Program-made: the position numbers and the translations under genes
The notes under the pieces: model-generated
Told to the model about the DNA's origin: nothing
The model's input: the letters and a program-made list of their open reading frames with translations, nothing else
The model's database searches: none
Origin: Nitrosomonadales bacterium
Lineage (GTDB): Bacteria; Pseudomonadota; Gammaproteobacteria; Burkholderiales; Gallionellaceae
Assembly (NCBI GenBank): GCA_016218415.1
Contig: JACRED010000020.1
Location: 1 to 64,000 of the forward strand
Length of the DNA stretch: 64,000 nucleotides
Reading direction: 5' to 3'
Part shown: positions 1,196 to 13,260 of the stretch, piece by piece
How the letters are laid out: each line of letters begins with the position of its first letter
Position numbering within the stretch: position 1 is the stretch's first letter

Positions 1196-3883
1196 TCATG
1201 CACGCCGCTCAAGAATACGGCGTATCTCCGGCACGCATGATCCGCAATTTGTCCCCGCCTTCAGGCACGCGCCTACCGCCTCGACGCTATCCAACCCTTG
1301 TGACTGGATCGCGTTGGCGATCGTCTTTGCGCCGACGCTGAAGCAGGCGCACACGATGCGCCCGGTGTCCGACACCGCCCCCAGCGGCGGGCGCGCGGAC
1401 AGCAGGCCGGCCAATTCAGCGGGTTGCAGCGCTGCCTGCGCGAACAGGCTGGCCAGCCATTCGCGGTCCGGCAGACGCTGATCCGGCGCCAAAAAGAACA
1501 CTGCTTCGAGACGACCATCCATCAGACAGGCGGCACGATAACGGCCCATCTTGGCGTCGCGGTATTCGATCCAGTCGCCCGTTTCACCCAACGCAGTTTG
1601 CGCCCAGACAAGACTATCCTCCGGCATCGTTTCACCGGCGATCTCGTGACGCCAATATCCGGCCCCCAGTGTGCACGCGCAATAGCCGGCGTCCGAAAAT
1701 TCCAGCCGTTTGCGGCTGAGCACGAAGCCCTGCCATGCCGGGCTGTACGGCGCAACGCGCACTGGCGCGTGTTTGGATTCCGGCTGGCCGGAGATCGGGT
1801 CGGTGATGGGTGCGACCAGCGCATCCACCCGTGCCGCTTTGGCATAGGCATCGTTCCAGTGCATAGGCACGAACACCGAACCGGGACGCTGATCTTCGCT
1901 GACCTGCACCCGCGCCAGCATGCTGCCGTGGCGGCTGGTCAAATTGGCCAGTGCGCCATCCTGTAACTGATATTTTTGCGCATCGCCGGCGTGCATTTGC
2001 ACGAACGGTTCGAACAAGTGCGCATTCAGGCGCGGCACCTTGCCGGTGCGGGTCATCGTGTGCCACTGGTCGCGGATGCGGCCGGTATTGAGCACCAGCG
2101 GATAGGCCTCATCGACCGCCACCGCAGGCAATCTTGGCGCGACCGCGATCATGCGCGCCTTGCCGCCGGGCGTATAAAATTTCCCGTCGGCGAACAGGCG
2201 CTGCGTGCCTTGCGGTGCGTGGCTGTTGACCGGCCATTGCACAGGTTGCAATGCGTCGTATTCCGCGTCGTCCAGTTCGCCCAATGCGCTGATGTCGAAG
2301 GCACGCGCTCCATTGTTTTCAAAACCGGATAGCCGCGCATGTTCGCGAAATATCTGCGCAGGCTGCGTGTAACGAAATTGCTCGGCATAACCCATGCGTT
2401 GCGCCACCTGAGTGATGATCCACCAGTCCGGTTTGGCTTCCCCCGCTGCCGTGATGAACGCGCGCTGCCGCGAGATGCGCCGCTCCGAATTGGTGACCGT
2501 GCCGTCCTTCTCGCCCCAGCCCTGCGCCGGCAGCAGGATGTCGGCGCAGGCCGTGGTGTCGGTGTGCTGCATGCAATCGGATACAACCACCAGTTCGCAT
2601 GCCATCAACGCGGCGCGCACCTTGTCCGCATCCGGCATGCTGACCGCCGGATTAGTGCCCATGATCCACACTGCCTTGATCTTGCCTGACCCTATCGACT
2701 GGAACATGTCCACGGCTTTCAGGCCGGGTTGCTGCGCAATGCCGGGTGCATTCCAGAATCGCGCGACCCGGTCCACACTCGCCGCATCGGCAAAATCCAT
2801 GTGCGCCGCCAGCTGGTTGGCCAGACCGCCGACCTCGCGTCCGCCCATCGCATTCGGCTGACCGGTCACCGAGAACGGCCCCATGCCGGGCTTGCCAATA
2901 CGCCCGGTGGCCAGATGCACGTTGATGATCGCGTTGGCCTTGTCCACGCCGGATGAAGACTGGTTGATGCCCTGCGAGAAAATCGTCACGGTGCGTTCGG
3001 TGCGCGCGAACATTCTGAAAAACTCGCTGACCTGCGCTTCCGGTACACCGCACACTTGCGCGACTTTTGGAATCGAACTGACTGCCCGCACCGCCTCGAA
3101 GGCTGCCGCAAAGCCTTCCACATGTGCCTCAACGTAGGCGAGGTCTAGTGCATCTTCGCGGCGCAGATGATGGAGCAGGCCGTTGAACAGGAACGCATCC
3201 GCGCCCGGCGCGATGGCCAGGTGCAGGTCGGCGATGTCGCAGGTGGCGGTGCGTCTCGGGTCGATCACGACCACCCGCATCTCCGGTCGCGCTTTCTTCG
3301 CCGCCACGAGGCGCTGGTACAGCACCGGATGCGCCCAGGCATAGTTGGAACCGGCGATCACCACCAGATCGGCTTGCTCGATGTCTTCGTAGCAGACCGG
3401 CACCGCATCCGCCCCGAACGCGCGCTTGTGCGCGGCGACTGCGGTGGACATGCACAACCGCGAATTGGTGTCGATGTTGGCGCTGCCGATAAAACCCTTC
3501 ATCAGCTTGTTGGCGACGTAATAATCCTCGGTCAATATTTGCCCGGAGACATAGAACGCCACCGCGTCCGGCCCGTGCTGCGCGATGATGTTCTTGAAGC
3601 CGTCGGCGACACGATCCAGTGCGTCATCCCAGGATGTGCGCTGGCCATCGACGATGGGGTAAAGCAAGCGGCCTTCGTTATCCAGCGTCTCGGCCAGCGC
3701 CGAACCCTTGGAACACAGCCGCCCGAGGTTGGCCGGATGCTGCTTATCGCCGGACAGAGTCACAGCCGCAACATTCACCGCCACGCCGCAGCCGACTCCG
3801 CAATAGGGACAAGTCGTCAGGACTGGAGATTTAGAACCGGGGGTTGAGGACTGGGGGCCGGGGACTGGGGGCTGAGATTTCAT
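1196..3883 (-). CDS. nasA: assimilatory nitrate reductase, molybdopterin catalytic subunit
   Basis: This 895-residue cytoplasmic enzyme reduces nitrate to nitrite as the first step of nitrate assimilation. The N-terminal [4Fe-4S] motif is visible (C25, C28, C32, C57 from the chosen start), followed by the bis-MGD oxidoreductase body and the molydopterin-dinucleotide domain. A C-terminal BFD-like [2Fe-2S] domain follows (CACFSVG near the end, then CGSC), as in Klebsiella-type NasA. The start at 3883 is preferred because the iron-sulfur motif begins about 25 residues later; an in-frame start at 3949 would overlap nirD. It is the last gene of the nrt-nir-nas operon, 28 bases after nirD. Residues 4-20 are a Pro/Ser/Gly run coded by a GGACTGGGG-like short repeat, probably an expansion. 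Confidence 0.95.
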   Translation of the reverse strand: MKSQPPVPGPQSSTPGSKSPVLTTCPYCGVGCGVAVNVAAVTLSGDKQHPANLGRLCSKGSALAETLDNEGRLLYPIVDGQRTSWDDALDRVADGFKNIIAQHGPDAVAFYVSGQILTEDYYVANKLMKGFIGSANIDTNSRLCMSTAVAAHKRAFGADAVPVCYEDIEQADLVVIAGSNYAWAHPVLYQRLVAAKKARPEMRVVVIDPRRTATCDIADLHLAIAPGADAFLFNGLLHHLRREDALDLAYVEAHVEGFAAAFEAVRAVSSIPKVAQVCGVPEAQVSEFFRMFARTERTVTIFSQGINQSSSGVDKANAIINVHLATGRIGKPGMGPFSVTGQPNAMGGREVGGLANQLAAHMDFADAASVDRVARFWNAPGIAQQPGLKAVDMFQSIGSGKIKAVWIMGTNPAVSMPDADKVRAALMACELVVVSDCMQHTDTTACADILLPAQGWGEKDGTVTNSERRISRQRAFITAAGEAKPDWWIITQVAQRMGYAEQFRYTQPAQIFREHARLSGFENNGARAFDISALGELDDAEYDALQPVQWPVNSHAPQGTQRLFADGKFYTPGGKARMIAVAPRLPAVAVDEAYPLVLNTGRIRDQWHTMTRTGKVPRLNAHLFEPFVQMHAGDAQKYQLQDGALANLTSRHGSMLARVQVSEDQRPGSVFVPMHWNDAYAKAARVDALVAPITDPISGQPESKHAPVRVAPYSPAWQGFVLSRKRLEFSDAGYCACTLGAGYWRHEIAGETMPEDSLVWAQTALGETGDWIEYRDAKMGRYRAACLMDGRLEAVFFLAPDQRLPDREWLASLFAQAALQPAELAGLLSARPPLGAVSDTGRIVCACFSVGAKTIANAIQSQGLDSVEAVGACLKAGTNCGSCVPEIRRILERRA

Positions 3884-3911
3884 GATTTGGGCTTTACTCG
3901 CGCCTAGCGCC

Positions 3912-4229
3912 TCAAACCTCGGCCCTGACTTCAAGGAACACCACGCCATGCGCTACCCGCACTTCATGACGATGCGCGCAGCCGACATCCGGCTCGACCG
4001 CGTTACCGGACTCCAGCTCGATCACCCAGCTGTGCAGCGGACAGGTGACGCGCTTGCCGTGCACGATGCCCTGCGACAATGGCCCGCCCTTGTGCGGACA
4101 GCGATTGTCCAGCGCAAACACCTGGTCGTCCACACTGCGGAACAGCGCGATCTCGCCAGCCGCCGTGTTAACCACACGCGAACCCTGGCGGGGGATGTCT
4201 TCCAGATTGCCGATTTGTGTCCAGTTCAT
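3912..4229 (-). CDS. nirD: nitrite reductase small subunit (Rieske-type)
   Basis: This 105-residue NirD protein works with NirB in NADH-dependent reduction of nitrite to ammonium. It has the Rieske-like fold with CPH (in NRCPHKGGPLSQG) and CPLHSW motifs. The start at 4229 fits the normal family length and has AGAGG about 9 bases upstream. ATGs at 4235 and upstream would add residues derived from the inverted repeat at 4264-4341. It sits between nirB and nasA in the operon; the unusually long 146-base gap to nirB is filled by that repeat. Confidence 0.93.
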   Translation of the reverse strand: MNWTQIGNLEDIPRQGSRVVNTAAGEIALFRSVDDQVFALDNRCPHKGGPLSQGIVHGKRVTCPLHSWVIELESGNAVEPDVGCAHRHEVRVAHGVVFLEVRAEV

Positions 4230-4263
4230 TCTCATTTTCCTCTTTTGCATGGCCGCATATAAA

Positions 4264-4341
4264 CCGTTCGCCCTGAGCTTGCCGAAGGGTGAATTGACTT
4301 GCAGGTAGCCATTCATGGTTCGACAAGCTCACCACGAACGG
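4264..4341. repeat. inverted repeat CCGTTCG...CGAACGG, copy 1 (between nirB and nirD)
   Basis: Two outward-facing arms (CCGTTCGCCCTGAGCTTGCC and the reverse of CCGTTCGTGGTGAGCTTGTC) form an imperfect hairpin. A second copy with the arms exchanged lies at 27518-27592. Half copies are at 55327-55353 and within 53968-54119. It is inserted within the nir operon and could affect nirD expression or mRNA stability. Confidence 0.75.
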
Positions 4342-4375
4342 CTTTTAAAATTGATCCTTGTTTTTGTTGCCATGG

Positions 4376-6832
4376 TTAGATCGTCGCCAATGCCGCATAC
4401 TCGTGCGCATCCTTGCCCTCGGCGCGTTCCTTCCACGGATCGTCCTGTGAATATTTTTGCGATTCGAGGAAGCGCGCATACAGTTCGGCACGGCCTGCCG
4501 CGTCCTCGACCACGCGCTGTTTCACATAGGCCAGGCCAACGCGCTCTATCCACGGCGCGGTGCGATCCAGGTAGTGCGCCTCTTCGCGGTACAGCTGCAT
4601 GAACGCGCCGCAGTACTCCAGCACCTCGGCCTCGCTCGCGACCTTGCATAGGAAATCGGTGACGCGCACCTTGATGCCGCCGTTGCCGCCGACATGGATC
4701 TCGTAGCCGGAATCCACGCACACCACGCCGAAGTCCTTGATGGTCGCCTCGGCGCAATTGCGCGGGCAGCCGGACACGGCGATCTTGAATTTGTGCGGCG
4801 TCCAGGAACCCCAGGTCATCTTCTCGACCTTGATGCCCAGCCCGGTGGAGTCCTGAGTGCCAAAGCGGCACCACTCCGAACCGACGCAGGTCTTGACCGT
4901 GCGCAGCGATTTTCCGTAGGCGTGGCCGGAGACGAATCCCGCCTTGACCAGATCGCCCCACATCTTCGGCAGGTTTTCCTTGCTCACGCCGAGCAGGTCG
5001 ATGCGCTGACCGCCGGTGATCTTCACGGTCGGGACTTTATATTTTTCGGCGATGTCGGCTATAGCGCGCAATTCGGACGGCGAGGTGACCCCGCCCCAGA
5101 TGCGCGGCACCACCGAATAGCTGCCGTCCTTCTGGATGTTGGCGTGCACCCGTTCGTTGATGAAACGCGAGCGGCTGTCGTCCTGATATTCGCCGGGACT
5201 GGCCGACAGCAAATAATAGTTCAGCGCCGGGCGGCAGGAATGACAGCCATCCGGCGTCTTCCAGCCCAATGTCTGCATCAGTTCCGGCAAGCTCTTCAGG
5301 CTATGCTTGGCGATGGCCTCGCGAACCTCTTCATGGGTCAGCTCGGTACACGAGCACATCGGCTTTTTGCTCGGCTTGGCCGAGTAATCGCCACCCACGG
5401 TGTTGGCCAGTATCGCCTCGACCAGCCCGGTGCAGGAGCCGCAGGAACTGGAGGCCTTGGTATGCGCGCGCACCTCTTCCAGCGTGAACAGCTTCTTGTC
5501 CAGAATGGTCTTGACGATGGCGCCTTTGCACACGCCGTTGCAACCGCAGATCTCGGCGCTATCCGGCATGTTCGCGACGCTGGCCGCGCCGCCGCGACCC
5601 GAGTCGCCCAGATGCGCCTGGCCGAACAGGATGTGCTCGCGCATCTCGGTGATGTCGGTGCCATCGCGCATCATCTGGAAATACCACGGCCCGTCCACGG
5701 TGTCGCCGTACATCACCGCGCCGCGCAACTTGTTGTCGCGCAATACCAGCTTCTTGTACACGCCGCGCGCCGCATCCTGCAACAACAGCTCTTCATCATC
5801 CGGACCGGGATTGAAGTCCCCCGCCGAGAACAGGTCGATGCCGGTCACCTTGAGCTTGGTGGACACCGACGAACCTTCGTAACGCATCCGGCCATATTCG
5901 GCCAGATGGTTCGCCGCGACCTTGGCCTGCTCGAACAGCGGCGCGACCAGGCCATAGGTCTGTTTGCGATGCTGCACGCATTCGCCGACCGAATAGATTT
6001 TCGGGTCGTAAGTTTGCATCGTGTCGTTGACGACGATGCCGCGCTCGCAATAGATGCCGGCAGACTTGGCCAGGTCGATGTTGGGGCGTATGCCCGCCGC
6101 CATGATCACCAGATCGGCAGGAATCTCTTCGCCATCTTTGAAGCGCAGCCCGGTCACTTCGGTCTCGCCGAGGATCGCTTCGGTCTGACGCGACAGATAG
6201 AACTTCAGCCCGCGTTTCTCCAGCTCTTTCTTCAACAGCCCGCCGCCGACCTGATCCAGCTGGCGCTCCATCGGCCAGTCGCACAGGTGCACCACCGAAA
6301 CTTCCATGCCTTGCAAAGACAGGCCGTTCGCCGCTTCCAGCCCGAGCAACCCGCCGCCGATGACCACGGCGCGTTTTTTTGTTCCATTGTTATCCCGCGC
6401 AGCGGTGAGCATCTTCTCGACATCGTCTATGCTGCGATAGGCCAGCACGCCGGGCAGATTGATGCCGGGTATAGGCAGCATGATCGGGTTGGAGCCAGTC
6501 GCAATCAGCAGGCGGTCATAGGGCACAGCCAATCCGGTGGCGGTTTCCACCATACAGCGCTGCCGGTCTATCTTGTTCACCACCTTGCCGGCATGCAGCG
6601 TGATGTTGTTTTCCTCGTACCAGCTCCAGTCGTTCAGCACGGTGTCCTGAAACTTCATTTCGCCGGACAGAACCGGAGAAAGCAGGATGCGGTTGTAGTT
6701 GGGCTGCGGCTCGGCGCCGAACACCGTGATGTCGAATTCGTCCGGCGACATCTTGAGCAGTTCTTCGATGGTGCGTATCCCCGCCATCCCGTTACCGATT
6801 ACTACCAGCCGCATTTTATTTTTTGTCATCAT
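4376..6832 (-). CDS. nirB: NADH-dependent nitrite reductase large subunit (siroheme)
   Basis: This 818-residue cytoplasmic flavoprotein carries electrons from NADH through FAD and iron-sulfur centres to siroheme, reducing nitrite to ammonium. Domains in order: FAD/NAD oxidoreductase (GNGMAG near residue 13; second dinucleotide motif GGGLLGLEAA), two BFD-like [2Fe-2S] segments (CGCNGVC...CGSC, then CSC...CHSC), and the sulfite/nitrite reductase half-domains. The siroheme-[4Fe-4S] ligands C649, C655, C689 and C693 are intact. GAGG precedes the ATG at 6832; an ATG at 6829 is equally possible. Siroheme would have to come from a CysG-type enzyme, not present here. Confidence 0.96.
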   Translation of the reverse strand: MMTKNKMRLVVIGNGMAGIRTIEELLKMSPDEFDITVFGAEPQPNYNRILLSPVLSGEMKFQDTVLNDWSWYEENNITLHAGKVVNKIDRQRCMVETATGLAVPYDRLLIATGSNPIMLPIPGINLPGVLAYRSIDDVEKMLTAARDNNGTKKRAVVIGGGLLGLEAANGLSLQGMEVSVVHLCDWPMERQLDQVGGGLLKKELEKRGLKFYLSRQTEAILGETEVTGLRFKDGEEIPADLVIMAAGIRPNIDLAKSAGIYCERGIVVNDTMQTYDPKIYSVGECVQHRKQTYGLVAPLFEQAKVAANHLAEYGRMRYEGSSVSTKLKVTGIDLFSAGDFNPGPDDEELLLQDAARGVYKKLVLRDNKLRGAVMYGDTVDGPWYFQMMRDGTDITEMREHILFGQAHLGDSGRGGAASVANMPDSAEICGCNGVCKGAIVKTILDKKLFTLEEVRAHTKASSSCGSCTGLVEAILANTVGGDYSAKPSKKPMCSCTELTHEEVREAIAKHSLKSLPELMQTLGWKTPDGCHSCRPALNYYLLSASPGEYQDDSRSRFINERVHANIQKDGSYSVVPRIWGGVTSPSELRAIADIAEKYKVPTVKITGGQRIDLLGVSKENLPKMWGDLVKAGFVSGHAYGKSLRTVKTCVGSEWCRFGTQDSTGLGIKVEKMTWGSWTPHKFKIAVSGCPRNCAEATIKDFGVVCVDSGYEIHVGGNGGIKVRVTDFLCKVASEAEVLEYCGAFMQLYREEAHYLDRTAPWIERVGLAYVKQRVVEDAAGRAELYARFLESQKYSQDDPWKERAEGKDAHEYAALATI

Positions 6833-6884
6833 GCATTCCTCAAAATTTATCGGGTGCCGCCAGTGTGCTGCCCGGCTTCACCGC

Positions 6885-7214
6885 TCATATCTCAAACACG
6901 GATCTGTTCGAAAGTATTTCTATCTCGTCACCCGCCGCGATGATGTCGGACAACCACGCAGCCTTGCCATTGACTGTGCAAACCACGCAGCTGTCATCCA
7001 GCTCATATGCCCATCTTTTTCCGCGCATACGCAATTTGTTCAGCATCTGCTCAAGCGTAAACTTCCCGTCCGGAACCGCCATACGTTCCGATGTCATCGC
7101 CAAATAGTCGCTGACCCGACCGAAGTACATGATGGCAATCTCATGTCTGCGCTCGAGTGACGCCGGGAAAAACGGTATTTTCATCTGGCACACCGGTGTT
7201 GTCTGGATATCCAT
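6885..7214 (-). CDS. MoaD/ThiS-like beta-grasp protein
   Basis: A 109-residue protein whose C-terminal part (FTLEQMLNKLRMRGKRWAYELDD, then VNGKAAWLSDIIAAGDEIEI) resembles the ubiquitin-like fold of MoaD/ThiS sulfur carriers. It ends in SVFEI and lacks the terminal Gly-Gly needed for activation by an E1-like enzyme, so a carrier role is doubtful. The start shares a base with the porin stop (TAATG), implying translational coupling. Its place inside the nitrate operon suggests a role in molybdenum-cofactor supply or enzyme maturation, but that is inference. The N-terminal 45 residues resemble nothing I recognise. Confidence 0.65.
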   Translation of the reverse strand: MDIQTTPVCQMKIPFFPASLERRHEIAIMYFGRVSDYLAMTSERMAVPDGKFTLEQMLNKLRMRGKRWAYELDDSCVVCTVNGKAAWLSDIIAAGDEIEILSNRSVFEI

Positions 7215-8518
7215 TAAAACTTCGTTTCCGCCCACAACCACAGCTTGTTGGTATTGGCGCCTATGGCAGCATTTTGCGTTTTGTATATGGCGTATTTGGC
7301 GCCGATGACATAACTCTTGCCGAAGTTCTTGGCGGCCATCAGGTTCCATTCCGTCCCGTAGTCGCCGATGGTCGCCGTGGATTTATCCGCGCTGAAGTCG
7401 TGGTAGGCAGCCGCCATCTTGATGCCAGCCAACGTCGTTCCGGCCGACACATAGATGTCTTTCAGGCCTTGGGTAGGTGTGACCAGGAACATGTCAGCCC
7501 AACCATTGAAGGCATGCAGCGTGGCCAGCGGGGTCGAGAATGACTTGGTGGTCGCTGCGCTGCTTGCCTTGGTGGTGGCGCCGGTGTCGGCGCCCAACAC
7601 CTCATACCCCAGCTTGAATACCGCGCTGGTGATATCCACGCCGCCTTCCACAAAGAGGTAGCTGGCCTTGAACTGGGTCGGATTGTTGTTGGCGTCGGAC
7701 TGGCTCGCATATTCCGCCGTGTACAATAGTTTGTACTCATCGACCTGCGAGTTTCCGTTCATCCTCAAACCGTAGGTGTTTGTGGAACTGGCGGTAAATG
7801 CGGTGGAGGCATCGTAGTTCAGCATGTAGCCATAACCCACCAGCTCGGCGAAACCCCATCCCTTGTAGCTGACGTTCAGCAGGCGCGAACTCATCTTGTG
7901 ATTGCCGGCAAACGCGCCGGAAGTTTTGCTGGCGGCGTTGTCGCTGAAGATGCGGTTTACATTGGCCAGGTAGGCAGCCGTGATCCGGGTGTCCGGCAAC
8001 GATGCGTTCACCAGCGTCAGCGCATCGTAGGTCTGCTCGTTTTGGCGCCATCCCACGTTGCCGATAAAGCGCGCGTTATCGAGTATCAGGCGTTGCCGTC
8101 CCCATTTCACATTCGTGGATGCGGGGATGGAGCTGTAGCTCAGATAGGCCTGATTCATCTCGGTGGCTTCCGGATCAGGAGCGACCGCATAACCGTTCGC
8201 GGTGGCCCCGGTTGCCTTGCTGTCATAGCTCTTGCCGCCCAGCGCGGTCACCGACTCCGCCTCGACCATTGCGCTGAAGCCGCTAAATGTCCCGGTCTCA
8301 TAACCCAGGCGCAAGCGCACGGTGGAAGCATCTGCGCTATTTGGCGCGGCCTTGCCGGGATTTTTGACGTTCTCGTGACGGAGCTGCACGTTGGCCGACG
8401 TTTTTCCGCCCGCCAGCGCTTCCGCGATATCTTCGGCGGCATGGGCTGCCGCGCTGCCTGCCAGCAAAGCGATGGCTATCAAGGATTGCTGCAAGTGTTT
8501 GTCGTTTCTGCGTTTCAT
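7214..8518 (-). CDS. outer-membrane beta-barrel porin (alginate-export/porin-like), probable nitrate entry
   Basis: This 434-residue precursor has a classic signal peptide ending AAAHA-AED (about residue 27). It then shows alternating aromatic/polar strands and a terminal phenylalanine (WAETKF) typical of Bam-assembled barrels. GGGGAG lies 8 bases before the ATG. It sits between the ABC transporter ATPase and the MoaD-like gene in the operon, so it most likely lets nitrate or nitrite cross the outer membrane. Substrate is inferred from context only. Confidence 0.85.
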   Translation of the reverse strand: MKRRNDKHLQQSLIAIALLAGSAAAHAAEDIAEALAGGKTSANVQLRHENVKNPGKAAPNSADASTVRLRLGYETGTFSGFSAMVEAESVTALGGKSYDSKATGATANGYAVAPDPEATEMNQAYLSYSSIPASTNVKWGRQRLILDNARFIGNVGWRQNEQTYDALTLVNASLPDTRITAAYLANVNRIFSDNAASKTSGAFAGNHKMSSRLLNVSYKGWGFAELVGYGYMLNYDASTAFTASSTNTYGLRMNGNSQVDEYKLLYTAEYASQSDANNNPTQFKASYLFVEGGVDITSAVFKLGYEVLGADTGATTKASSAATTKSFSTPLATLHAFNGWADMFLVTPTQGLKDIYVSAGTTLAGIKMAAAYHDFSADKSTATIGDYGTEWNLMAAKNFGKSYVIGAKYAIYKTQNAAIGANTNKLWLWAETKF

Positions 8519-8550
8519 TGCGATAACTCCCCAGGTTAAAGTTGGTTAAA

Positions 8551-9342
8551 TCAGGCGGCTGCTTTTGCCTGCTTCTGGTACAAAAACTCCAGCACGGCAC
8601 CGCGCAGGCTGTGGTAATGAGCATCGTTTGCCAGCGCCAGACGGTTGCGCGGCTTGGGCAGATCGACCGTCAGGATTTCTCCTATGGTTGCCGCCGGGCC
8701 GTTGGTCATCATCACGATGCGGTCGGACAGCAGCACTGCCTCATCCACATCGTGCGTGACCATCACCACCGTGCTGTTGGTTGCCGCGACGATCTTCATC
8801 AGCTCGTCCTGCAAGTGCGCGCGGGTCAATGCATCCAATGCGCCGAACGGCTCGTCCATCAGCAGCACTTTGGGTTGCATCGAAAGCGCGCGCGCAATGC
8901 CGACACGCTGTTTCATGCCGCCGGATATCTCGTGCGGATATTTATGCTCGGCGTGGCTCAGATGCACCAATGCGAGCGCATTGCTGGTGCGCTGCGCGAG
9001 TTGCGCTTTGCTTTCCGTCGCACCGAACACGCGTTCGACTGCAAGATAGACGTTCTCGAAGCAGGTCAGCCAGGGCAGCAGCGAATGGTTCTGGAACACC
9101 ACGCCGCGATCCGGCCCCGGCCCGGCGATCTCGCGATCCGCGCAAAGCATCACGCCGTTGGTTGGCAGCAGCAACCCCGCGATCAGGTTGAGCAGCGTGG
9201 ACTTGCCGCAGCCCGAGTGCCCGATCAGGGTGATGAATTCGCCGGGATTGATCTTGAGGTCTATGTCCTTGAGCGCGACGAACGGCCCCTGCCTGGTCTC
9301 GAACGACATCTGCACGTTTTCTATCTGCACATACTTTTTCAT
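8551..9342 (-). CDS. nrtD: nitrate ABC transporter, ATP-binding protein
   Basis: A 263-residue ATPase of the nitrate/sulfonate/bicarbonate (NrtD/TauB) family that energises nitrate import. Visible motifs: Walker A GHSGCGKST (about residues 42-50), signature ISGGMKQR, Walker B VLLMDEP and the switch histidine in VTHDVDEA. AGGAACACC precedes the ATG. It follows the permease gene by 31 bases. The C-terminus has no fused substrate-binding domain, so this is NrtD-like rather than NrtC-like. Confidence 0.93.
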   Translation of the reverse strand: MKKYVQIENVQMSFETRQGPFVALKDIDLKINPGEFITLIGHSGCGKSTLLNLIAGLLLPTNGVMLCADREIAGPGPDRGVVFQNHSLLPWLTCFENVYLAVERVFGATESKAQLAQRTSNALALVHLSHAEHKYPHEISGGMKQRVGIARALSMQPKVLLMDEPFGALDALTRAHLQDELMKIVAATNSTVVMVTHDVDEAVLLSDRIVMMTNGPAATIGEILTVDLPKPRNRLALANDAHYHSLRGAVLEFLYQKQAKAAA

Positions 9343-9373
9343 GGTGTTCCTGTTTGAAATCTAAATTGCAGGG

Positions 9374-10147
9374 TCAATAGCTGAATCGTTTGGCGATCTG
9401 GATCAGTATCATCTCCAGCAGCAAGCCGACGATACCGACCACGAAGATCGCGATGATGATGTGCTCGACGTTCAGGTTGTTCCACTCGTCCCACACCCAG
9501 AATCCGATGCCCACGCCGCCGGTCAGCATCTCTGCCGCGACGATCACTAGCCAGGCCGTGCCGATGGCCAGACGTATGCCGGTCAGCATGTAGGGCAGCG
9601 TTGCCGGGAACAATATCCTGGTGAATACCTTCCATTCGGACAGGTTGAGCACACGCGCCACGTTCAGATAATCCTGCGGCAACTGGCGCACGCCCATCGC
9701 GGTGTTGATGATCATCGGCCAGATGCTGGAGATGAAGATCACCCAGATGGCGGCGGGATTGGCTGCCTTGAACACCAGCAGACCGATGGGCAGCCAGGCG
9801 AGCGGCGATACCGGCCTCAACATGCTGACGATGGGCGATGTCATCCTGTCTAGAAAGCCGAAGCGGCCGATCATGAATCCGAGCGGGATGCCGATCAGCG
9901 CGGCCAGCCCGAAACCGATGCCGACCCGCCCCAGCGAATTCAGGATGTTCCAGCCTATGCCCTGATCGTTTGGCGTCTTCTGATAGAACGGATCGCTGAA
10001 CAGCGTCACTGCGGAATCCCAGGTCTTGAGCGGTCCCGGCAGTGTCTCGCTGCCCTGCGCCAGCATCGCCCAGAGCAGGATGAATATCCCGATGCCGATG
10101 ACAGGCGGAACCAGATGTTCCGCCAGATACTTTCGTATTTTCATCAT
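9374..10147 (-). CDS. nrtB: nitrate ABC transporter, permease
   Basis: A 257-residue inner-membrane permease of the NrtB/SsuC family with about six hydrophobic segments and the ATPase-contact EAA region (about residues 160-180, VLNLSEWKVFTRILFPATLP). The start at 10147 overlaps the nrtA stop in an ATGA arrangement. A possible upstream start lies inside nrtA and is less likely. Together with nrtA and nrtD it forms the complete importer. Confidence 0.93.
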   Translation of the reverse strand: MMKIRKYLAEHLVPPVIGIGIFILLWAMLAQGSETLPGPLKTWDSAVTLFSDPFYQKTPNDQGIGWNILNSLGRVGIGFGLAALIGIPLGFMIGRFGFLDRMTSPIVSMLRPVSPLAWLPIGLLVFKAANPAAIWVIFISSIWPMIINTAMGVRQLPQDYLNVARVLNLSEWKVFTRILFPATLPYMLTGIRLAIGTAWLVIVAAEMLTGGVGIGFWVWDEWNNLNVEHIIIAIFVVGIVGLLLEMILIQIAKRFSY

Positions 10148-11397
10148 GCCCGCACCTTGAAGCTGGCGGCGTATTTCCTGGGATCCTTGCCGTCCCATAC
10201 CGTGCCGTCTATCAGCTTCGAACTGCGCATCACGTCCTTGGGTATGCTCACCTTGACCTGGGAGGCCGCCTGCTTGTACAACTCGATCTGGTTGATCTGC
10301 TTGGCAATCGCAAGATAATCAGGATCGGTCTTGAGCAGGCCCCAGCGCTTGTGCTGGGTCAGGAACCACATGCCATCCGACAGATAGGGGAAGTTCACGG
10401 CACCGTCGTTGCAGAACTTCATGTAGTTCGGGTCGTCCCACTTCTTGCCCAGACCGTCCTCGTATTTGCCTTCCAGACGCTGGTCGATCACCTCGACCGG
10501 GCAGTTCACATAGGATTTGTCGGCGATGATCTCGGCCACCTTGCGGCGGTTGGACATTTCATCAATGTACTTGGAGGCTTCCAGTACGGCCATCATCAGT
10601 GCGCGCGCGGTGTTGGGATATTTCTGCGTGAACTCGGCTGTGCTGCCCAGCACTTTTTCCGGGTGGTCCTGCCAGATGTCCTGGGTGGTCGCCGCAGTGA
10701 AGCCGATCTTGTCGTAGATCGCGCGGTTGCCCCACGGCTCGCCGACGCAGTATCCGTCCATGTTGCCGACACGCATGTTGGCGACCATTTGCGGCGGCGG
10801 CACGGTGATGGTCTTCACATCGCTCAGCGGATTGATGCCGTGGCTGGCCAGCCAGTAATACAACCACATCGCGTGAGTGCCGGTCGGGAAGGTATGCGCG
10901 AAGGTATAGTCGCGCTTTTCGATATCAACCAGTTTCTTCAGGGCCGCACCGGTGGTCACGCCCTTGTCCTTGAGCTGGTTGGAAAGCGTGATCGCCTGGC
11001 CATTGTTGTTCAGCGTCATCAGCACGGACATGTCTTTCTGCTGTCCGCCGATGCCGAGTTGCACGCCATAGACCAGACCGTACAGCACATGCGCCGCGTG
11101 CAGTTCGCCGTTTACCAGCTTGTCGCGCACCGCCGCCCAGGACGCTTCTTTGGAAGGCACGATCTTGATGCCGTATTTTTCGTCGAACTTCATCACCGAG
11201 GCGATCACCACCGAGGCGCAATCGGTCAACGGGATGAAGCCCACCTTGACCTCTTTCAACTCCGGCGCATCGGAACCGGCTGCCCAAGCGGCACTGCGCA
11301 CGCCCGGCGGAACCATCGCCATCAGCGCCGCACCACCCAACAACCCCGCACCCTTTTTCATGAAATCCCTCCGGCTGTTTTTGAATTCGTCGTCCAT
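10144..11397 (-). CDS. nrtA: nitrate ABC transporter, periplasmic substrate-binding protein (Tat signal)
   Basis: A 417-residue binding protein of the NrtA/CmpA family. A twin-arginine motif SRRDFMK (residues 8-14) followed by a hydrophobic stretch and AWA indicates Tat export. The mature part starts near residue 40 with VKVGFIPLTDCASVV, the usual first strand. GAGGAG stands just before the ATG. It is the first gene of the operon, behind the sigma-54 promoter and ANTAR-type leader. Since it is exported, it is unlikely to double as the cytoplasmic NasS sensor, which belongs to the same fold. Confidence 0.94.
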   Translation of the reverse strand: MDDEFKNSRRDFMKKGAGLLGGAALMAMVPPGVRSAAWAAGSDAPELKEVKVGFIPLTDCASVVIASVMKFDEKYGIKIVPSKEASWAAVRDKLVNGELHAAHVLYGLVYGVQLGIGGQQKDMSVLMTLNNNGQAITLSNQLKDKGVTTGAALKKLVDIEKRDYTFAHTFPTGTHAMWLYYWLASHGINPLSDVKTITVPPPQMVANMRVGNMDGYCVGEPWGNRAIYDKIGFTAATTQDIWQDHPEKVLGSTAEFTQKYPNTARALMMAVLEASKYIDEMSNRRKVAEIIADKSYVNCPVEVIDQRLEGKYEDGLGKKWDDPNYMKFCNDGAVNFPYLSDGMWFLTQHKRWGLLKTDPDYLAIAKQINQIELYKQAASQVKVSIPKDVMRSSKLIDGTVWDGKDPRKYAASFKVRA

Positions 11398-11429
11398 CGC
11401 ATCGCTCCTCAGTAAAAATTACAAAATAA

Positions 11430-11478
11430 AAAGGCGTCACACCCGCAGGAGACACAACTCCCGCGAATGGACGCCTTT
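11430..11478 (-). terminator. conditional (leader) terminator of the nrt-nir-nas operon
   Basis: On the minus strand a 9-bp outer stem AAAGGCGTC/GACGCCTTT (11470-11478 with 11430-11438) encloses an inner GCGGGAG/CTCCTGC stem, followed directly by TTTTTATTTT. It lies in the leader between the sigma-54 promoter and nrtA, so it would stop transcription unless prevented. Its 5' strand is also part of the ANTAR hairpin P2, so the two structures exclude each other. Confidence 0.85.
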
Positions 11479-11515
11479 GTCCGTTCAAACTGGTGCCGGA
11501 TCGCCATTGACCCGG
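11469..11515 (-). promoter_or_regulatory. ANTAR-binding two-hairpin antiterminator (P1 and P2)
   Basis: Reading the minus strand, P1 is CCGGGTC-AATGGC-GATCCGG (11515-11496) and P2 is GGAC-AAAGGC-GTCC (11482-11469), separated by 13 bases. Both hexaloops have A at position 1 and G at position 4, the recognition rule for ANTAR proteins such as NasR and EutV. P2 uses AAAGGCGTC, which otherwise starts the terminator stem. Binding of NasT to P1-P2 should therefore free the polymerase to read into nrtA. Confidence 0.85.
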
Positions 11516-11532
11516 TTACTGCAAACTACTCC

Positions 11533-11547
11533 GCAAGACCTGTGCCA
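11533..11547 (-). promoter_or_regulatory. sigma-54 promoter of the nrt-nir-nas operon
   Basis: Minus-strand TGGCACAGGTCTTGC matches the -24/-12 consensus almost perfectly (TGGCAC-N5-TTGC; GG-N10-GC). The predicted start near 11521 is six bases before the ANTAR hairpin P1, so the whole regulatory leader would be transcribed. Confidence 0.88.
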
Positions 11548-11683: not shown

Positions 11684-12265
11684 TCAGGCACTCAGCTCTT
11701 TGGCCATAATGATGGCCTCGGCGATCTCCGCCAAACGCTTTCCTTTGCTCATGGCCATATTGCGCATGCGCTTGTATGCCTCGGGTTCGCTGTAGCCGTG
11801 GTCGGCCATCAAAATGCCCTTGGCCCGATCCACCAGCTTGCGTTCGACGAGTTGGCTCTTCGCTTCCTTTAATTCGTCGCGCAGTTTTTTGTGTTCTGCA
11901 AAACGGGCGGCGGCCACATGAATGATGCCGCTCAGGTCCTCACCCTGTATGGTATGCGCTACATAGGCGCTGACCCCGGCGCGCATCGCTTCCCTGATAC
12001 TCTGCTGGTCTTTCTGCGCCCCCAGCACGACCACCGGTTTTTCCAGCGTGGCGGACATCAGGCTGATCTGCTCCAGTGTGTCGCGCCCCGGCGCGTTGGC
12101 ATCCACGATGATGACGTCTGCGGATGCGGCCTGTATCGAGTGCTCGTCCACCTGCTCCCAGGCCAATACCCCGGCGACATTGAATCCTGCCAACTCAAGA
12201 CTGGCCTTCAGCCATGCGGCGCGATCTGTTGCATCATCAATAATCAGGATTCGTTTCAATCGCAT
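11684..12265 (-). CDS. nasT: NasT-type response regulator with ANTAR RNA-binding domain
   Basis: About 193 residues: a CheY-like receiver (RILIIDD, phospho-acceptor Asp in IIVDANAPG) followed by a coiled linker and a C-terminal ANTAR domain (RAKGILMADHGYSEPEAYKRMRNMAM). ANTAR proteins bind paired hexaloop hairpins and prevent termination; the matching target lies 170 bases downstream in the nrt leader. The start is uncertain. AAGGAG abuts the ATG at 12265 with no spacing, is six bases from a TTG at 12259, and a GTG at 12277 lies on the predicted transcription start. TTG 12259 or ATG 12265 are the best choices. No NasS sensor gene is adjacent. Confidence 0.9.
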   Translation of the reverse strand: MRLKRILIIDDATDRAAWLKASLELAGFNVAGVLAWEQVDEHSIQAASADVIIVDANAPGRDTLEQISLMSATLEKPVVVLGAQKDQQSIREAMRAGVSAYVAHTIQGEDLSGIIHVAAARFAEHKKLRDELKEAKSQLVERKLVDRAKGILMADHGYSEPEAYKRMRNMAMSKGKRLAEIAEAIIMAKELSA

Positions 12266-12396: not shown

Positions 12397-12684
12397 ATCC
12401 GCGCGATGCATCCTTGACAAATCAGGCGCTGATATCAGGCCGAACAGGAACGGGATCGCCTCCGCATACGCATGCCAACCTGTCTCTTGCCGGCTTGGGC
12501 GCTGGCCGGGAGACGCATCGATGATATGGATTGCGGAGGTCAACGCAACCGCAAGGAAATGTCGATTTCCCTCCGGCATGCAACTTGCGAAGTCCAGGCC
12601 ATAGGCATTGCACATACCGTGCGGCGCAAACCTTGCGTGATTGGGCGCTTTCGCAAGGCACACATTTTTGATGGGAGTAAAGCG
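12397..12684. other. divergent intergenic region between nasT and the cNMP-fold gene
   Basis: Together with the nasT control sites this forms a 419-base gap. A short minus-strand open frame (12328-12663) lacks a ribosome site and any recognisable sequence, so I do not call it. GGGAG at 12673-12677 is the ribosome site of the next gene. I see no clear sigma-70 promoter for the plus-strand gene. Confidence 0.5.
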
Positions 12685-13260
12685 ATGAATTTACCCGACG
12701 GCCAACACAATTCTGCCACCCAACCCGGCAATGCTGCAGTAGCCATGCACATGATGGGCCACCTGATCACTCCCGATGAGCGCATATTGAGAGCCCTGCA
12801 CAACAGCAGGCTGGCAGAAGGCTTGAGCGATCCGGAAATCAGCGTGCTGACCAGGCTGATTACCGTTCAAACCTTTGAGGTCAGGGAGCTTGCCGAACTG
12901 GACGATGATCCGTTAAAGGATGCGCTGATGGTACTGGTCGATGGCGAGGTCGAGATCAACGCCCTGGTGGGCAATGAGCCGGTGTCGCTGCATCTGGTAT
13001 GGCCGGGCGATCTGGCCAGAATCGTCAGCTTTGTGGGCGGGAATATGATGAGCCTCAACTCCAGGATCATCGTCAGAAGGGATAGCACCGTTCTGTTGTT
13101 GCAGCGCTCCAGGCTCGAATCCCTGCTGCATACCCATCCTGCCATCGTGTATGGCGTGATGCGCAACCTGGTCCTGCATCTGCACGGCATGGCCAGACAA
13201 AGGAACGCCGAAAAAGAGGAACTGAAAAATTATTTTTTCAGCATGCACGGGCGCTATTGA
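12685..13260 (+). CDS. degenerate cyclic-nucleotide-binding-fold protein without HTH
   Basis: A 191-residue protein with a CRP-like beta-roll (about residues 55-150: LVDGEVEINALVG, then LHLVWPGDLARIVSFVGG, then STVLLLQRSRLESLL). A helical tail ends in MHGRY, with no DNA-binding helix-turn-helix. The phosphate-binding cassette (normally GE-ALL---R-A) is not conserved, so cNMP binding is doubtful. The ATG at 12685 has GGGAG seven bases upstream; earlier in-frame starts lack a ribosome site. It is divergent from nasT and upstream of an HU gene. It could be a sensor or scaffold; its function is unknown. Confidence 0.75.
   Translation: MNLPDGQHNSATQPGNAAVAMHMMGHLITPDERILRALHNSRLAEGLSDPEISVLTRLITVQTFEVRELAELDDDPLKDALMVLVDGEVEINALVGNEPVSLHLVWPGDLARIVSFVGGNMMSLNSRIIVRRDSTVLLLQRSRLESLLHTHPAIVYGVMRNLVLHLHGMARQRNAEKEELKNYFFSMHGRY

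Follow-up and report, generated by a model that had tools for sequence, protein, structure and literature searches.

A segment of the minus strand spanning positions 11547-11430, placed between nasT and the nrtABD...nirBD-nasA operon of a Gallionellaceae genome, can be read with high confidence from its sequence features as an ANTAR-type transcription-attenuation leader behind a sigma-54 promoter. On these features it is one more case of the known ANTAR mechanism, ordinary for the family and well supported. The anatomy of the element, its conservation, the covariation of its P1, P2 and terminator stems and its co-occurrence with NasT are demonstrated below. We term the system a departure from the described NasS-NasT pair, because it has no detectable NasS, a point missed by an earlier note made on this DNA from its letters alone. 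The window, i.e. the whole 64,000-nucleotide stretch of DNA analyzed, is located on C7, one of the 47 contigs of a 2.5 Mb assembly that is 86% complete.

Genomic context of the leader

The gene immediately upstream, nasT (11684..12259, minus strand), codes for a protein with a receiver-like and an ANTAR domain and no NIT domain, which confirms that it encodes an ANTAR protein, as the earlier note had held. No other ANTAR gene turned up in the assembly, and the best named match of the nasT product, at 92% identity, comes from a Gallionellaceae bacterium. The nasT gene is adjoined by a divergent gene (12472-13260, plus strand) that shows weak similarity to FtrB/Crp-type regulators and has no Pfam match; relatives of this gene adjoin nasT in several other loci.

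The genes of the putative nitrate operon downstream are indeed present, likewise on the minus strand. The first gene behind the leader, nrtA (10144..11397), encodes a nitrate-binding protein with the twin-arginine signal SRRDFMKK, and is followed by the nitrate ABC transporter genes nrtB (9374-10198) and nrtD (8551-9342), for which NCBIfam TIGR01183/TIGR01184 are cited. Further putative members of the operon are the genes for an Alginate_exp-type channel (7214-8518), a ThiS-like ORF (6885-7349), nirB (4376-6832), nirD (3912-4316) and a molybdopterin reductase of the nasA type (1196-3949). The genes from nrtA to the nasA-type reductase gene (1196-11397) are probably co-transcribed. Upstream of the promoter, at about 11670-11645, we noted the inverted repeat GGTGCG-N14-TGCACC; we do not claim it as an NtrC site, as its order is the reverse of what we take to be the NtrC consensus.

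Anatomy and predicted folding

The earlier note had placed a sigma-54 promoter, hairpins with the loops AATGGC and AAAGGC, and a terminator, in this order, at 11430..11547, and both coordinates and letters agree with that description. The promoter, TGGCACAGGTCTTGCG (11532..11547, minus strand), begins about 140 bases downstream of nasT on the same strand, and carries its GG at 11546-11545 and its GC at 11534-11533. With the form TGGCAC-N5-TTGCG and the GG-N10-GC spacing of sigma-54 promoters, it agrees at 10 of the 11 scored positions, and transcription would be expected to start near 11521. Hairpin P1 (11496..11515, minus strand; CCGGGTC-AATGGC-GATCCGG) has seven pairs and a hexaloop at 11508-11503, and hairpin P2, the putative antiterminator (11469..11482, minus strand; GGAC-AAAGGC-GTCC), has four pairs and a hexaloop at 11478-11473, with A1 and G4 in both loops. 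The intrinsic terminator (11428..11478, minus strand), AAAGGCGTC...GACGCCTTT with a T run, has the arms AAAGGCGTC...GACGCCTTTTT. Its 5' strand reuses the loop and 3' arm of P2, and P2 and the terminator are therefore mutually exclusive, as had been claimed; the folds of truncated and full RNA differ correspondingly. The full leader is predicted to fold as P1 plus terminator at -47.7 kcal/mol, which is about 6 sd below the mean of 200 dinucleotide shuffles (-29.1 kcal/mol, sd 3.1; none of the 200 as low), and RNA ending at the 3' end of P2 folds exactly as P1 plus P2, at -15.8 kcal/mol. In these models P1 and P2 would fold first and P1 and the terminator at full length, which is the order expected of a co-transcriptional switch, though the energies alone are no proof of one.

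These features correspond to those by which Ramesh et al. 2012 describe ANTAR targets, namely two hairpins with A1/G4 hexaloops of which P2 overlaps a terminator (PMC3369931). The element has two such hairpins, each with a stem of at least three pairs, its P2 shares bases with an intrinsic terminator so that only one of the two can form, and the genome encodes an ANTAR protein. The leaders of eutP in Enterococcus, nasF in Klebsiella and amiE in Pseudomonas, as presented in the same paper, share the dual A1/G4 hairpins, the overlap of P2 with the terminator, the adjacent ANTAR gene and the nitrogen genes downstream. The window differs from these systems in its linker of 13 nt between P1 and P2, and in that its ANTAR protein has a receiver in place of a NIT domain and no NasS partner was found for it in the assembly. 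According to the account of the eut leaders of Enterococcus in that work, natural linkers span 5-12 nt and linkers of 3 and 14 nt impaired control (PMC3369931); the linker in the window is one above this range, and those of its relatives before nrt-type operons measure 12-18 nt. NasR, in which NIT is fused to ANTAR, acts with the nasF leader, which is of the same kind as that of the window, whereas the window NasT has a receiver domain and lacks NIT.

By default, a transcript would stop at the terminator. Active NasT on the hexaloops of P1 and P2 would hold P2, so that the base of the terminator stem could not form and polymerase would continue into nrtABD...nirBD-nasA. Binding by NasT, this direction of control and nitrogen control through sigma-54 are expected by analogy, from knowledge of the ANTAR family.

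Conservation, covariation and distribution

When both strands of the window (64 kb) were scanned for a pair of A1/G4 hexaloop hairpins with a terminator, this was the single case returned. A similar, strict scan of the gaps between nasT and nrtA or nasS in other genomes (68 gaps of at least 100 bases, mostly with signal-bearing nrtA) detected a full leader in 42 of them, as against none of 1360 single-base shuffles. Scanning the genome collection with NasT gave 80 kept matches, which represent 79 distinct loci; 35 of these (L034-L068) carry close relatives of NasT, 77-92% identical, and at least one two-hairpin element with terminator is present in 26 of the 35. The scan found none in L044, L050, L051, L054, L055, L057, L062, L067 and L068, some of which are short stretches. 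The sigma-54 core does not vary across 25 aligned leaders, nor do A1 and G4 in either loop. For P1 and P2 together, three pairs have changed on both sides (0.9 in shuffles) and the covariation score is 0.235 (0.164 in shuffles; none of 500 as high), with unpaired cells confined to the outermost P1 pair. The covariation is stronger for P1 with the terminator, where eight pairs have changed on both sides (2.7 in shuffles), 99.6% of cells are paired and again none of 500 shuffles matched the score. In three loci from other families of the order (L022:1449(-), L026:2284 and L027:1318(-)), we noted that three A1/G4 hexaloop hairpins, not two, precede the terminator.

We searched genomes with a model, R1, that was built from 24 elements. 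Among 37 genomes of the same genus, including that of the window, all 17 with nasT had an R1 match and all 20 without it had none (NasT relatives at 48% identity or more; R1 matches at E <= 0.01). Some of the 24 elements came from the searched genomes, so the positives are partly circular, which does not apply to the misses in genomes that lack NasT. Together with the features listed by Ramesh et al., this exceptionless co-occurrence supports, at the level of sequence, the proposal of the earlier note that the element is an ANTAR leader. In a set of 61 genomes, R1 matched 21, each of which has an ANTAR gene, and none of the 32 that lack one. The remaining eight of the 29 ANTAR-bearing genomes had no match under the stricter filters of this search, by which weak matches may be lost; one of the eight, G016, carries a different ANTAR gene.

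Several genomes carry further elements. In G018, besides the nrtA leader, elements precede an MFS transporter gene, presumably narK, and nirB, each with its own sigma-54 box, and in G043 an element with a sigma-54 box precedes an MFS transporter gene followed by a NirB-like gene. Six of the 35 close loci (L034:10092, L037:10073, L038:9776, L039:10112, L040:9793 and L049:10135) have a second element within the operon, directly ahead of nirB; these elements lack a good sigma-54 box, the best scores being 6-7 of 11. Several leaders per cluster are known from the eut genes of Enterococcus, as described in PMC3369931 and PMC3369936. Two other R1 matches, one before a gcvT-like gene named by eye (G050:C59, E 0.004) and one at G043:C1:1346011, look like chance.

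The structure could in principle be the terminator of nasT itself or an ordinary attenuator unrelated to ANTAR proteins, and the terminator does lie downstream of nasT. We consider this highly improbable, given that the sigma-54 box sits between nasT and the hairpins, that P1 and the two loops show conservation and covariation, and that similar elements precede transporter or nirB genes away from nasT.

Relationship to the Rfam narK RNA and P11

A covariance-model search, which the earlier note had put forward as a check, gave a divided result: no Rfam family matched the window at its gathering threshold, and RF03032, the narK RNA, aligned with it end to end. This match (37.3 bits, E 5e-6) was obtained in permissive searches of 221- and 171-base stretches; only in these did RF03032 and RF00625 (P11) appear, both aligned over their full length to 11546-11468 of the minus strand and both below their cut-offs. 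At 37.3 bits against a cut-off of 43.2, the leader is not a formal member of RF03032. However, in the 2.5 Mb assembly the sole match to this model of external origin at E <= 0.001 is exactly this leader, and one of 20 related loci, L066, passes the gathering threshold (RF03032, 44.2 bits).

The consensus of RF03032 begins with a sigma-54 box, followed by one annotated hairpin, whose loop is AACGGC. At its end stands CGACAAAGACGUCGC, from which another hexaloop hairpin carrying A1 and G4 can fold; this unannotated CGAC-AAAGAC-GUCG matches P2 of the window. The Rfam structure differs from the leader in having only the one hairpin and no terminator. Searching the 250 genomes of our order sample with stricter filters, at which weak matches may be lost, we found RF03032 at E <= 0.001 in 29, three of them above the cut-off. 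NasT is present in 26 of these 29, compared with 100 of the 250 overall (hypergeometric 6e-9, ignoring relatedness). The other three (G183, G187 and G260) have NIT-ANTAR proteins and no NasT match, and the NIT-ANTAR gene lies a short way upstream of the element in G183 and G260 and at a large distance from it in G187. An NrtA-type gene follows within 600 bases for 19 of the 29 matches. The sequence evidence suggests that the narK RNA is most likely an ANTAR leader whose second hairpin is unannotated. We found no open-licence PMC paper naming narK RNA, narK motif or RF03032.

P11, a Pseudomonas sRNA, resembles the leader in that its consensus has a GGCACA box, a CAACGAUG loop, GGACAAAGGCGUCC and a terminator, and it aligns over its full length at 28.9 bits. 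A sigma-54 box and hexaloops resembling those of P1 and P2 are recognizable in this consensus as in that of RF03032. It differs in that its cut-off is 70 bits and in being filed as an sRNA gene and not a leader. It has been studied in learned avoidance of C. elegans (PMC10977744) and is reported to regulate the nirB-nirD-nasC operon (PMC12080996).

NasT without a detectable NasS

NasS has been presented as a homolog of NrtA that lacks a signal peptide and restrains NasT until nitrate is bound (PMC3795266). As in the NasS-NasT system of Paracoccus denitrificans, outlined in PMC3795266 and PMC5424462, the window combines a NasT-type regulator of receiver and ANTAR domains with a hairpin leader before nitrate-assimilation genes. 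It differs from that system in that the first gene behind the leader is nrtA with a twin-arginine signal and in that we did not find a leaderless, nitrate-binding NasS in its assembly (86% complete), whose two NMT1_2 members are the signal-bearing NrtA and a distant protein on contig C32. Given that no NasS was found, the nitrate control of the described pairs cannot simply be carried over.

The same pattern is widespread. Of the 17 NasT-bearing genomes of the genus, nine have only the signal-bearing NrtA of the window type (G000, G001, G005, G008, G018, G021, G028, G033, G034), and four have a leaderless homolog (G010, G014, G030, G032). In G003 and G011 the sole type is a cyanobacterial-type NrtA, and G025 and G029 have neither. 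In the order sample of 250 genomes, for which completeness of at least 95% was requested except for the window's own, NasT was detected at E <= 1e-18 in 100. Only signal-bearing NrtA-type homologs were found in 75 of these, a leaderless one in 20 and neither in five. The signals of the 75 show RR before the hydrophobic stretch in 70 cases and KR in four, and the stretch without either in G213. The leaderless class includes G039, and for G220 and G150, whose open frames extend further upstream, it depends on the chosen start codon. Run on the 75 + 5 genomes, a profile built from 15 leaderless NasS proteins had matches in 76, all those above 500 bits being signal-bearing NrtA proteins already known; thus the 80 genomes yielded no further high-scoring homolog, and four of them had none at E <= 1e-40. 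We found no open-licence PMC paper stating the occurrence of NasT without NasS. Leaderless genes near nasT are separated from it by 31-90 bases in 12 of 15 cases and by 359-410 in the other three; for signal-bearing genes within 600 bases downstream of nasT (52 cases) the distance is 187-541. Three loci from kin of the window's organism (L064, L065, L066) are laid out differently, with an MFS transporter gene, then a PP2C-like gene (named by eye), then leaderless nasS and finally nasT.

A NasS might have been missed, either in an assembly gap or as a sensor of another family. The incompleteness of the window's assembly, the four NasT genomes without any homolog at E <= 1e-40, and some profile matches of 240-270 bits that were counted without a reading of their N-terminus would all be compatible with this. 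However, the pattern recurs in genomes at least 95% complete, several of them in a single contig (G043, G191, G245), and no other gene was found to adjoin nasT in all loci, so that we regard this explanation as somewhat unlikely.

Possible routes of nitrate to NasT

The receiver domains of NasT bear on its control. The lysine involved in phosphorylation is replaced in at least 64 of 68 NasT proteins without NasS and in all 18 associated with it; the receiver aspartate is kept in 47 of the 68, compared with 18 of 18. This pattern makes control by a kinase unlikely in either group. It is also consistent with a NasT that is uninhibited and active whenever it is made, in which case the operon would follow nitrogen supply via sigma-54 and the leader would only add a dependence on NasT. 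The failure to find a leaderless NasS in the assembly, or by profile in the 80 genomes, points the same way, as does a Paracoccus nasS mutant described as expressing the nas genes without nitrate (PMC3795266, PMC5424462). The joint retention of leader and NasT in many lineages is hard to explain without a signal, however, and the same leaders accompany nitrate-sensing NIT-ANTAR proteins in three genomes; we therefore hold an uninhibited NasT to be a plausible reading at somewhat less than even chances. Taken jointly, the possibilities that NasT works without a dedicated inhibitor or with another partner rank first, and one of them is probably correct.

Ranked second, and in our view unlikely, is that NrtA acts as NasS before its export. 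Here, in most of the sampled NasT-bearing genomes of the order, the signal-bearing NrtA would double as the nitrate sensor of NasT: the empty precursor would hold NasT, nitrate would free it, and the exported NrtA would then serve the transporter, a dedicated NasS being an NrtA that has shed its signal, several times independently. Tat substrates fold in the cytoplasm prior to export, and an empty precursor could thus hold NasT. The position of nrtA as first gene behind the leader, the predominance of genomes with only signal-bearing homologs (75 of 100 with NasT) and the outcome of the NasS profile in the 80 genomes would fit such a role. So would a quick tree built from 110 sequences, of which 79 are signal-bearing, 24 leaderless and 7 outgroup (G070 included, G138 left out as too short), and in which leaderless NasS arises inside signal-bearing NrtA: the leaderless label needs five changes, four of them forced by branches with at least 95% SH-aLRT. 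This suggests that repeated loss of the signal from NrtA gave rise to NasS, tentatively so in view of a split outgroup, several long branches and a bad outgroup row (L126).

Against a sensory role of NrtA stands the lack of a NasT-specific signature. In a comparison of site conservation, from which six low-identity signal-bearing rows were left out and for which no frame was found for G173 and G260, no residues of NrtA were found to be kept only where NasT is present. The positions shared by NasS and NrtA are equally conserved in 13 NrtA proteins whose genomes lack a NasT match, with a mean of 0.98 over 107 columns and only three sites below 0.8. A further 13 positions show conservation in signal-bearing NrtA irrespective of NasT, and not in NasS; these are candidate sites of contact with the transporter, a pattern consistent with NasS having abandoned a role in transport.

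Implications

The leader described here offers an explanation for the narK RNA motif of Rfam, and the P11 consensus has the same parts. Most of the sampled NasT-bearing genomes retain NasT and its leader without a detectable NasS, which makes the route by which nitrate reaches NasT a testable question.
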